From: Acidomonas methanolica
GTDB taxonomy: Bacteria; Pseudomonadota; Alphaproteobacteria; Acetobacterales; Acetobacteraceae
DNA length: 64,000 nucleotides
Direction: 5' to 3'
NCBI RefSeq assembly: GCF_004346035.1
Contig: NZ_SLZN01000001.1
Location: 248,001 to 312,000 of the forward strand
Shown here: positions 7,805-10,669 of the stretch, one piece after another
How positions within the stretch are numbered: position 1 is the first letter of the stretch
Layout of the letters: every line of letters begins with the position of its first letter
Position numbers and translations under genes: made by a program
Notes under the pieces: generated by a model
What the model saw: only the letters and a program-made list of their open reading frames with translations
Told to the model about the DNA's origin: nothing
The model's database searches: none

Positions 7805-8440
7805 ATGCTCGGAATGAGAGAAAGGCCTGAAGCTGAGCCGCGACGGCTGCCTGATCCGGCGCAGCGCGCCCAACATGGCGGCATGGCGACGAAAGTCGTG
7901 ATCGCGGCGGCCGCCCTGCTTGGAACGGGCTATCTCGCGAGCACCCACTTCCCCGGGGCAACCGGGCCGGCGCCGGGCGTAGCGCCGCCCCTCAGCCAGC
8001 CTCCTGCGCCCACGCCACGCCCGGCCACGCATGTCGGCGCGCAGTTCTCGATGATCGCGCCGGAAAACGCACCCGCCGCCCTGCGTCATTCGGGCCTCAC
8101 ACCCGACCAGCAGCGCACGATCCTGGCGGCCGTCAAGCGGCGCGAGGTCCGGCTGGTCAACATGCCCCTGGCCGACGCCACCGGCCTGACGGGCAAGACG
8201 GTGGTCGTCAGCTCCGCCGGCATCGCCCAGACCGTCGTGCTGGGCCCCGCGCCCAAGAGCGTCCTTCTTCCGATCCGCGATATCGGCGAGGTGCTCATCA
8301 CCCCGGGCGGGCCTCCGGGCGCGACCCATACCATCGCAGACGGGGTGCAGATGGTTGCGCTGACCGCTCTCGGCCCCCAGCTCCTGCCGACCCTGACCTC
8401 CACCGACCAACAGCTTGTTCTGGACGTGATCGTGCAATGA
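7805..8440 (+). CDS. Unrecognised single-pass membrane protein, first gene of the AAA+ operon
   Basis: I do not recognise this family. The product is 211 aa from the ATG at 7805, chosen because an AAGGA Shine-Dalgarno lies 11 bases upstream. An internal ATG at 7883 (MATKVV) lacks one. A basic N-terminal tail is followed by one hydrophobic segment (VVIAAAALLGTGYLA), a Pro-rich linker, then a compact C-terminal domain of about 130 residues. Positive residues before the membrane segment predict a periplasmic C-terminal domain. The stop overlaps the next start (ATGA), so its job is probably tied to the ATPase. Confidence 0.8.
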   Translation: MLGMRERPEAEPRRLPDPAQRAQHGGMATKVVIAAAALLGTGYLASTHFPGATGPAPGVAPPLSQPPAPTPRPATHVGAQFSMIAPENAPAALRHSGLTPDQQRTILAAVKRREVRLVNMPLADATGLTGKTVVVSSAGIAQTVVLGPAPKSVLLPIRDIGEVLITPGGPPGATHTIADGVQMVALTALGPQLLPTLTSTDQQLVLDVIVQ

Positions 8441-9705
8441 AGGCGCTGATGCCGCTTCTCAACCGGCTGATGCCGGTGATGATGGTGATTTTCCTGGCTC
8501 TGGCCAGCCTTCAGGCCGCGATCGCGCTGCATTTGTCGTTCGGCAGCATTGAACGCTTCCTGCGCTGGGCGGAACCGGGCTATGTTCCCCTCGCGGGACT
8601 CGGCGCGCTGCTGGCGGTCTCCGGTCTTCTTTTCGAAACCCGTGCCGAACGCCTCGCCCGCAAGGGCCTGCGCCGCAGAAAGGGATTTGTCATGGACGTT
8701 CTCGCCCGGTTGACCAACCGGAGCGCGCTTGAGGAACTCATGGCGCGCGAGCAGAAGGAAATGGTGATCGACGCCGAGGAGCTCGCGGCCTCGCTGCGCG
8801 CGCGCGTGATCGGGCAGGATCAGGTCTGCGAGGATATCGCCCAGCAGCTTCGCCGCCGTCTCGCCTTGCAGGTGCGCGGCAAGCCGGTCGGCATCTTCCT
8901 GCTCGCGGGACCGCCGGGCACGGGCAAGACCTATCTCGCCAAGCAGATCGCCCGGCAGATGGACCGCCCCCTGCTGAATTTCGACATGACGCAGATGTCC
9001 AGCCCCCACGCCGCGACGCAGCTTTTCGGCTCGCCCAAGGGGTATGTGGGGTCCGACACCTTCGGCAAGCTGACCGGCGGATTGCAGGAAAAGCCGGACG
9101 CCGTCGTGCTGCTCGACGAGATCGAGAAGGCGCATCCGGATGTCTTCAAGAAGTTCCTCACCGCATGGAATGACGGCCACGTGACCGAGGCCTCCACGGG
9201 GGCGCAGATTTCCACGACGCGCGCCATCTTCATGCTCACCTCGAACATCGCGACCGACGCGCTGACCGAGATCGCCGACCGCCTCGCCGATGATCCCGAC
9301 CGGATGCGCGCCGAATCCGTAGAGGCGCTCCGCCAGGCCGGATTCGCGCCGGAGGTGCTGAACCGCCTCGACCGCATCTTCGTCTTCCGCAAGCTGAACG
9401 GGCTCGATCTGGCGCGCGTCGCGGCGCTCGAGATCGAGGCGATGATCGACAGCTACGGGTTACGCGTGGAGCCCGGCGGAATCGATGCGGCCCTGCTCTT
9501 CCATGTCATGCAGCGACAGCAGAAGCTCGGCGCCGGCGCATCGGCGCGCGATCTCGTGCGCTCCATCGAGGACATGGTCAGCGAGAGCCTCATCACCGCC
9601 CGCCAGAACGGCGCGAAGATGGTGCGTCTCATCAGCGGCGAAACCGGCGTGACCGCCGAGGTGGCCGACGACACGCAATCCCTCCATGCCCGCATGAGCC
9701 GCTGA
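8437..9705 (+). CDS. Membrane-anchored ClpA/ClpB D2-type AAA+ ATPase
   Basis: The 422-aa product has two predicted membrane segments (about residues 11-32 and 47-66), a strongly basic stretch after the second, then one AAA+ module on the cytoplasmic side. Visible motifs are VIGQD (124-128), Walker A GPPGTGKT (158-165), pore loop GYVG (202-205), Walker B LLDEIEKAHPD, sensor 1 TSN (270), arginine finger in NRLD (310) and a sensor-2 Arg (371). These match the second AAA+ domain of ClpA/ClpB. The ClpP-binding loop (IGF or IGL) is not seen, so partnership with ClpP is doubtful. No N-domain or first AAA+ ring is present. Likely role: unfolding or remodelling at the inner membrane. Confidence 0.88.
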   Translation: MKALMPLLNRLMPVMMVIFLALASLQAAIALHLSFGSIERFLRWAEPGYVPLAGLGALLAVSGLLFETRAERLARKGLRRRKGFVMDVLARLTNRSALEELMAREQKEMVIDAEELAASLRARVIGQDQVCEDIAQQLRRRLALQVRGKPVGIFLLAGPPGTGKTYLAKQIARQMDRPLLNFDMTQMSSPHAATQLFGSPKGYVGSDTFGKLTGGLQEKPDAVVLLDEIEKAHPDVFKKFLTAWNDGHVTEASTGAQISTTRAIFMLTSNIATDALTEIADRLADDPDRMRAESVEALRQAGFAPEVLNRLDRIFVFRKLNGLDLARVAALEIEAMIDSYGLRVEPGGIDAALLFHVMQRQQKLGAGASARDLVRSIEDMVSESLITARQNGAKMVRLISGETGVTAEVADDTQSLHARMSR

Positions 9706-9718
9706 ACGCCCGAACAGC

Positions 9719-10669
9719 ATGACCGCCTTTTCCCGACTCTGGCGCCGTGCGCCGCTCTGGCGCTGGTCGCTGTATGGCGCCGTCTTTTTCCTCGGCCTCG
9801 GCCTGCTCTACCCGACGCCGTACCTCCTGCATCGCTTTCCCTTCCTGACGAAGATTCCCGGCAGCGCCGCGCATCGCGGTCAGACGAACGATCAGCCCGG
9901 AGCCCCTTCAGCGCCGGATGCCGGGCAGGCGCCGCCCGGTTCCACCCCCGCCCCGCCGTCGGGCCCGGACCGCGTCGGCGCACCGGACATCAATACCACC
10001 TTCTCGGGCGGCATCCCGTTCGGCGGCCATACGCTGCCCCTTCCCGCCGGGATGTGGCACCCGGTCCTGACCGGGCAGGTCGGCCCCGGCGGCGCGGTGT
10101 TGTTCACCATCCTCGCCCGAACGGATCGAGGCATCGTGACCGGCGTCATCATCGCCCGCATCTCCAGCCGCCCGCAGCCGGGCCAGTCGGCGGACGGCGT
10201 GGAGAATTCCTGCCATGACGACCGCAATTTCGCGTCGCGCGTCCTCTCCGAAGGCCATAACGGGCTGCTGGAATGCTGGGCGGTCGCACGTTCGGTCGGC
10301 TCGTCGAGCGACCTGGTGAACGCCGCCTTCCAGCGACTGCATACGCTGGGCTTTCCCATTCCCCCGCTCTTCGTCGCCACGACATGGGTGCGCGCGCAGG
10401 CCATGAAGGACGGCAGCGGAGTCAATCTGGCGGCCGTGGACACGCTTCTCGCCCCGGTCAAACCTGCCTCGATCCAGCTCCTCGCTCCCCTGCCCTATTG
10501 GGACAAGGCATCCCTGGCGAAAGCGCCGGACGCCGAGCGCTTCGTGCAGGCGACGACGCATTGGATGGCGAACTGGGTCGGCGTGCTGCGCGAGGGGCTG
10601 GTGGACGGGTTGCCGGGGAACACGGCGCCCGCAGATGTAAGCAGAGACCCCGCCGCGCCGCCATTCTGA
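9719..10669 (+). CDS. Unrecognised single-pass membrane protein, third gene of the AAA+ operon
   Basis: I do not recognise this family. The product is 316 aa. A basic N-terminus (RLWRRAPLWRW) precedes one membrane segment (about 15-33), then a Pro/Gly-rich linker (about 52-92) and a folded region of about 220 residues predicted to be periplasmic. It contains only two cysteines (in ENSC and LLEC), which could form a disulphide. It begins 13 bases after the AAA+ gene with no clear Shine-Dalgarno, suggesting coupled translation. Its layout (anchor, flexible linker, outer domain) mirrors that of the first gene of the operon. Confidence 0.8.
   Translation: MTAFSRLWRRAPLWRWSLYGAVFFLGLGLLYPTPYLLHRFPFLTKIPGSAAHRGQTNDQPGAPSAPDAGQAPPGSTPAPPSGPDRVGAPDINTTFSGGIPFGGHTLPLPAGMWHPVLTGQVGPGGAVLFTILARTDRGIVTGVIIARISSRPQPGQSADGVENSCHDDRNFASRVLSEGHNGLLECWAVARSVGSSSDLVNAAFQRLHTLGFPIPPLFVATTWVRAQAMKDGSGVNLAAVDTLLAPVKPASIQLLAPLPYWDKASLAKAPDAERFVQATTHWMANWVGVLREGLVDGLPGNTAPADVSRDPAAPPF

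Follow-up and report, generated by a model that had tools for sequence, protein, structure and literature searches.

What does a Clp-type AAA+ ring do when it is apparently tied to a membrane and encoded between two partners with predicted membrane anchors? The question is raised by three genes, here called P1, AAA and P3, in the genome of Acidomonas methanolica (Acetobacteraceae), within a stretch of 64,000 nucleotides (contig NZ_SLZN01000001.1, positions 248,001 to 312,000) that was analysed as a whole and is referred to as the window. The genes are three plus-strand open reading frames (ORFs) in one tight run: the end of P1 and the start of AAA overlap in the bases ATGA, and 13 bases separate the AAA stop from the P3 start. 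An earlier note on this DNA, made from the sequence alone, had read them as an operon-like unit in which a membrane-bound ATPase is coupled to two partners of no recognised family. We found that the three genes stay together across the family, and that P1 has been deleted in six genomes whose ATPase has lost motor motifs and whose P3 is retained. We consider it about evenly balanced whether P1, AAA and P3 form one inner-membrane remodelling machine in which AAA and P3 make up a scaffold and the motor acts on or through P1.

The three genes form a unit in Acetobacteraceae

A profile of the AAA membrane and linker region matched 60 of 249 Acetobacteraceae genomes, and we examined the neighbours of AAA in each. 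P3 adjoins AAA in 60/60 (59 by profile and G218 at the locus level), although it is broken in G141 and incomplete at the end of a contig in G196. P1 adjoins AAA in 53/60, counting a truncated copy in G116 and a weak match in G218, and the seven AAA genomes without P1 consist of one contig edge and six true P1 deletions. Earlier single-sequence searches, which matched 66 and 68 of the 249 genomes at E 0.01 with marginal ones included, are superseded by these profile searches. In a scan of GTDB we found 118 relatives, and the best 80 of these 118 (the named loci), being the most similar, lean to close kin. All 80 match the three genes in order, a recurrence beyond chance; in two of them the P1 frame lacks a start codon, and in two the AAA frame is short. 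Genera with the trio among these best 80 of 118 include Gluconobacter, Acetobacter, Komagataeibacter, Gluconacetobacter, Asaia and Bombella. In 57 of 78 loci the P1 stop overlaps the start of AAA or directly adjoins it. Co-occurrence and adjacency in Acetobacteraceae, which the earlier note had named as its own test, are thus borne out, as is the operon-like arrangement.

Of the first 40 loci fetched, 35 contain AAA; rimP lies beside the trio in 24 of these and not in the other 11. In these 11 loci no neighbour family beyond the trio was seen in more than three, a weak negative, since frames in high-GC DNA are miscalled by the mechanical ORF finder. A class-wide search matched 4 of 337 genomes: G000 and G071, which belong to the family, and two marginal ones (E 2.8e-4 and 8.7e-4). 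A phylum draw matched 2 of 369 genomes, both family members; the draw's reach beyond the class is unchecked and the samples overlap. Four further loci (L112-L115) are marginal candidates with no member inside. As judged from these sequence matches the trio is a family-restricted unit, with no convincing member found outside Acetobacteraceae. A plasmid origin was rejected, the N-terminal part of AAA being unmatched in plasmid records, and so was a phage origin, since PHROGs gave ATPase and Clp-like matches to AAA and matched neither P1 nor P3.

Two departures from the picture of the earlier note emerged. Among genomes lacking AAA, nine match the P3 profile and four the P1 profile (E ≤0.001). 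One of the nine P3 matches (G064) lies at a contig edge; four others (G078, G171, G011 and G091, E 3.8e-21 to 3e-13) seem to be genuine P3-like domains. At two loci, L109 and L215, P3 occurs without AAA in the stretch. The other departure is the set of six genomes without P1, in which the ATPase is decayed. G071 carries a second P3-like gene (L109, 6776-7765) away from any AAA, and G011, a genome without an AAA match, has three P3-like matches in a row (G011:C1:957315-959659; the third is weak, E 7.7e-4).

A single Clp-type ring with predicted membrane segments

The AAA protein has 422 residues and one ring. It matches the Pfam family AAA_2 with E 1.2e-35 (123.5 bits, cut-off 27), and its top NCBIfam rows are ClpB, ClpA and ClpV at 170, 162 and 146 bits, against cut-offs of 1232, 993 and 885. 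The Pfam Torsin score is just below its cut-off (26.8 bits, cut-off 27). We compared 115 AAA sequences, namely the window, 34 loci and the 80 named loci, with three of the six decayed ATPases among them. Walker A, the pore loop, Walker B, sensor 1 and the arginine finger occur together in 112/115, and with the SARD sensor-2 motif added in 110/115; three sequences have none of the six motifs and two truncated ones lack SARD only. By its motifs AAA therefore qualifies as a member of the Hsp100/Clp superfamily, and by curated cut-offs it belongs to no named Clp family. An IGF/IGL-like tripeptide between sensor 1 and the arginine finger was found by sequence pattern in none of the 112 sequences that have this segment. 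According to a passage of PMC10149685, the IGF/IGL/LGF loop serves docking to ClpP. The protein stops after the AAA C-domain, and the FtsH model gives 19.6 bits of the 600 needed. Ahead of the ring are two hydrophobic segments, the first strong (mean hydropathy 2.32, lowest 1.81) and the second weaker (mean 1.74, lowest 1.08). The earlier description of a ClpA/ClpB second-ring ATPase with two N-terminal membrane segments, an intact pore loop, arginine finger and both sensors, and no IGF/IGL loop agrees with these results, the last point by a check of the sequence pattern.

With the second ring of ClpB, ClpA and ClpV, AAA shares the AAA_2 module, the GYVG pore loop, Walker A and B, sensor 1 and the arginine finger. 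It differs from them in having a single ring; where they have an N-domain, a first ring and an M-domain, AAA has two hydrophobic segments and a linker unique to it. The predicted anchoring of a cytosolic ring through N-terminal membrane segments is shared with FtsH and with other membrane-anchored AAA+ proteins such as Msp1 and BCS1. AAA has no protease domain, and its module is Clp-type rather than classic AAA. In its working the trio would be most like a membrane-tethered Clp ring. No description of the trio was found among the matches listed in literature searches, in keeping with the earlier statement that no described system of this make-up is known.

Loss of P1 coincides with decay of the ATPase

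P1 was not found in six genomes (L096, L097, L118, L207, L208 and L209). The starts of rimP and AAA lie 260-303 bp apart in these genomes, as compared to 904 and 908 bp at two loci with the trio intact, indicating that P1 was deleted rather than diverged. In all six, the Walker A Thr and the GYVG pore loop of AAA are missing and its Walker B is changed, although the gene is still a single open frame, and P3 is retained in 6/6. From its motifs, the decayed AAA probably no longer hydrolyses ATP. On a tree of NusA and RimP (33 rows) the trait requires three changes (bootstrap range 3-4), two of them forced by starred branches, and a single clade of P1-less genomes with decayed AAA is rejected. 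This count cannot separate gain from loss, and L096 is one long row. Because AAA decayed in about three lineages where P1 was lost, P1 appears tied to the motor. Read most simply, the pattern links P1 to ATP-driven pulling and leaves the membrane part of AAA, together with P3, a use of its own. Between L207 and L208 the decayed AAA has a dN/dS of 0.06, equal to that of P3, a sign of purifying selection which suggests that the decayed protein still has a job. These two genomes are the one close pair that is measurable, dS being saturated in the comparison of L097 with L209.

Two other loci show breakage of a different kind. At L210 (G141) the AAA N-terminus and P3 are broken and P1 is open, as in a locus in decay. 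At L111 (G180) P1 and P3 are open and AAA is interrupted, falling into two frames, which may be real or an assembly error.

The partner proteins P3 and P1

Neither P1 nor P3 has a match near a Pfam or NCBIfam cut-off. No Pfam family was matched by more than two of 33 P1 members at E up to 1, and DcrB/DUF1795 was not among the Pfam matches of any of 36 P3 members at the same threshold. We compared 117 P3 and 111 P1 sequences, and defined the linker as the 40 residues following the hydrophobic segment. The P3 alignment excludes L159, which is shortened, and the P1 alignment excludes L123 and L124, in which no start codon was found.

The membrane segment of P3 is modest, with a hydropathy of at least 1.6 in 74/117 sequences, and its linker is clearly Pro-rich (14.4% Pro against 9.5% in the rest). 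The first 16 residues are better kept than the periplasmic domain, with a mean conservation of 80% against 48%, and the head motif RLWRRAPLWR is found in 114/117. In AAA-linked P3 the first piece of the profile match starts at profile position 1-5. Matches away from AAA begin at position 22 or later, except for G071:C1 and the contig-edge G064; the second P3-like gene of G071 lacks the RLWRRAPLWR head. Since P3-like matches away from AAA mostly start beyond the head, this head is likely to be the contact to AAA. The P3 of the window has just two Cys, both in the domain assigned to the periplasm; both positions are Cys in 116/117 sequences, which would fit a periplasmic disulfide.

P3 has no sequence relative with a solved structure. 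An AlphaFold2 model built from 80 sequences (mean pLDDT 87.4), in which the periplasmic domain is predicted with confidence, was compared with known structures. The periplasmic domain aligned with Mog1 (Z 8.3, rmsd 4.5, 151 aligned), DcrB (Z 6.3, rmsd 4.2, 111 aligned), the Eag chaperone SciW (Z 6.3, rmsd 5.1, 121 aligned) and PsbP (Z 5.7, rmsd 4.5, 136 aligned). TplEi, DcrB, SciW, Apa and PsbP span Z 5.7-6.5; Apa presumably belongs to the Mog1p/PsbP-like class. At least 9 of the first 15 structural rows are of the Mog1/PsbP class, the top Z being 8.3, where 7-8 is typical of models without a clear Foldseek match. No Foldseek row falls below E 0.015; the first is the DasR effector domain, a different fold, and Mog1 stands 26th at E 0.061. 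Tentatively, the modelled domain bears a weak resemblance to the Mog1/PsbP fold, which includes DcrB and the Eag chaperones. P3 differs from DcrB, SciW, PsbP and Mog1 in that it has no sequence match to them, is apparently anchored by a head and a membrane helix, and has two conserved Cys. Eag chaperones bind transmembrane segments, as stated in a passage of PMC7773334, and by analogy a DcrB-like P3 might be linked to the binding of transmembrane helices, a connection that is suggestive only.

P1 also has a modest membrane segment (hydropathy of at least 1.6 in 87/111; 1.56 in the window), and its Pro content is 9.7% in the linker against 8.7% in the rest, so that it has no clear Pro-rich linker. 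The tail ahead of the segment is about 20-30 residues in most sequences, with PxP within the first 34 residues in 93/111 and P[DE]P in 74/111, counts made without a chance control. An AlphaFold2 model from 79 sequences has a mean pLDDT of 77.2; its C-terminal domain, confident for the most part, is predicted to be a beta-sandwich without a clear relative. Sequences with solved structures gave chance-level rows only. The first Foldseek row for the model is MmpS5 (E 0.016) and the best of a second structural comparison is CBM60 (Z 5.6, rmsd 3.0, 83 aligned); we trust neither as a relative. The claim that both partners carry an anchor and a Pro-rich linker holds for the P3 linker, is tempered for the anchors by their modest hydropathy, and is not clearly borne out for the P1 linker. 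That both are unrecognised holds at the level of named families, with the qualification that the P3 domain looks Mog1/PsbP-like.

Locus and upstream region

Features of the locus are listed in Table 1. The alternative P1 start corresponds to Met4, which is conserved in 81% of the 111 sequences. The trio is divergent from rimP, nusA and infB and has a convergent ABC-transporter pair downstream, these neighbours being named from a reading of their translations.

Table 1. Features of the P1-AAA-P3 locus (window coordinates; topology and domain folds are predicted).
Feature	Position	Strand	Description
P1	7805..8440 (start maybe 7814)	+	short tail, predicted cytosolic; one hydrophobic segment; linker; putative periplasmic beta-sandwich domain (model residues 74-210)
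AAA	8437..9705	+	two N-terminal hydrophobic segments; conserved linker MDVLARLTNR...DAEELAASLR; one ClpB/ClpA second-ring type AAA+ module
P3	9719..10669	+	head RLWRRAPLWR, predicted cytosolic; one hydrophobic segment; Pro-rich linker; putative periplasmic Mog1/PsbP-like domain with near-invariant C165 and C186
Divergent intergenic region, rimP to P1	7596..7804	.	contains TTTACA-N17-CGCTTG at 7752-7780

The TTTACA element of the intergenic region matches no promoter class that we tried. A looser form, TTACA-N12-30-CTTG, lies upstream of P1 in 32 of 78 regions including the window, as compared to 0.6 expected in shuffles. The 78 regions (drawn from the window and L121-L200) stem from related genera, and the counts of elements among them are not independent. 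RpoH-type sites, searched by consensus, were absent from all 78 upstream regions of 300 bases, with 0.1 expected by the strict form and 2.4 by the loose form.

A candidate trans-envelope machine and its alternatives

If the three proteins work together, AAA would form a cytosolic ring, presumably a hexamer, of the Clp/Hsp100 second-ring type, with two transmembrane segments per subunit and neither protease nor ClpP dock. P3 would sit beside AAA, held there by its membrane segment and its conserved cytosolic head, and expose the Mog1/PsbP-like domain to the periplasm. The P1 tail, predicted to be unstructured and cytosolic and often containing PxP, could plausibly give the pore loops a handle. 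A pull on this tail would move, unfold or release the periplasmic domain and whatever it holds. The topology of all three proteins is predicted solely from hydropathy and Cys. A fuller picture is a family-specific trans-envelope motor, in which the ring grips the P1 tail and works on the periplasmic domain, the Mog1/PsbP-like anchor outlives the motor, and about three lineages have a pseudo-ATPase scaffold kept by selection. This fuller picture we advance tentatively, with somewhat more doubt than belief.

Several observations weigh against such a machine. Charges agree with an inside N-terminus in only 77/111 P1 and 91/117 P3 sequences, and the P1 tail varies in length and lacks PxP in 18/111. 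The Walker A Lys is kept in all six decayed ATPases, and L207 and L208 keep much of the core, so that nucleotide may still be bound. Selection is laxer on the decayed AAA of this pair than on intact AAA (dN/dS 0.02, L211/L213). The tie between P1 and the motor is not absolute, as L092 (G116), sister to L207 and L208, combines a broken P1 with an intact AAA; this may be an early step of the same decay. Three events are few, and each of the six genomes is small (1.9-2.4 Mb), so that decay there may be common. Residual rates correlate at 0.68-0.73 inside the trio and at 0.26-0.58 with flanking genes, yet rimP and the ABC ATPase, an unrelated pair, reach 0.83. We therefore discarded rate covariation as not diagnostic for the trio.

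The co-loss of P1 and motor motifs also fits a role of P1 as activator as well as it fits that of client. From its place in the membrane, P1 would then activate the ATPase or serve it as an adaptor, and the client would be another envelope protein. LAP1 and LULL1 are type II membrane proteins that activate Torsin, according to a passage of PMC4358337, and a Clp-like AAA+ protein with a membrane-anchored partner is the likeness between that system and the trio. In contrast to Torsin, AAA has its own arginine finger and pore loop, and thus needs no finger from a partner. The folded domain of P1 would lie across the membrane from the ring by the predicted topology, and its model is a beta-sandwich rather than an AAA+ fold. 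An activator role is possible, though we think it unlikely.

More doubtful is a general quality-control extractase or disaggregase of the membrane, similar to Msp1 or to an FtsH without protease, for which P1 and P3 would gather damaged envelope proteins. A membrane-anchored Clp/Hsp100 motor with a pore loop and no protease would suit this task, as would the presence among the P3 fold matches of SciW, an Eag chaperone of the kind that binds transmembrane segments (PMC7773334, in the passage cited above). Restriction to one family, with no convincing member elsewhere, is odd for a general service. The 78 upstream regions offer no RpoH-type promoter by consensus, and P3 persists where the motor no longer appears to work.

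That the three genes are neighbours through history only, with no joint work, is very improbable. The wider rimP-nusA-infB region is conserved too in the 24 fetched loci with rimP, but the trio stays united in the 11 with other surroundings, the P1 and AAA frames overlap or touch in most loci, and the co-losses are parallel. Its relation to the Clp second ring notwithstanding, AAA has practically no chance of being a membrane ClpP-type protease subunit, as none of the 112 sequences with the relevant segment carries the IGF/IGL-like tripeptide.

Implications for the periplasm of Acetobacteraceae

TonB, Tol-Pal and ABC transporters are known routes by which energy reaches the ATP-free periplasm from the cytosol. 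Few solutions to this long-standing problem of energy supply are known, and a Clp-type ring that works with single-pass partners of its own would add another. A transposon knockout collection of G. oxydans B58 exists, according to a passage of PMC8602642, and since the trio occurs in Gluconobacter the question is testable soon. In the main texts of two G. oxydans screens, AAA ATPase, rimP and nusA were not found under those words. The parallel conversions to a decayed and seemingly selected ATPase would provide a natural dissection of the machine, separating the structural contacts of AAA and P3 from the motor-dependent part, P1.

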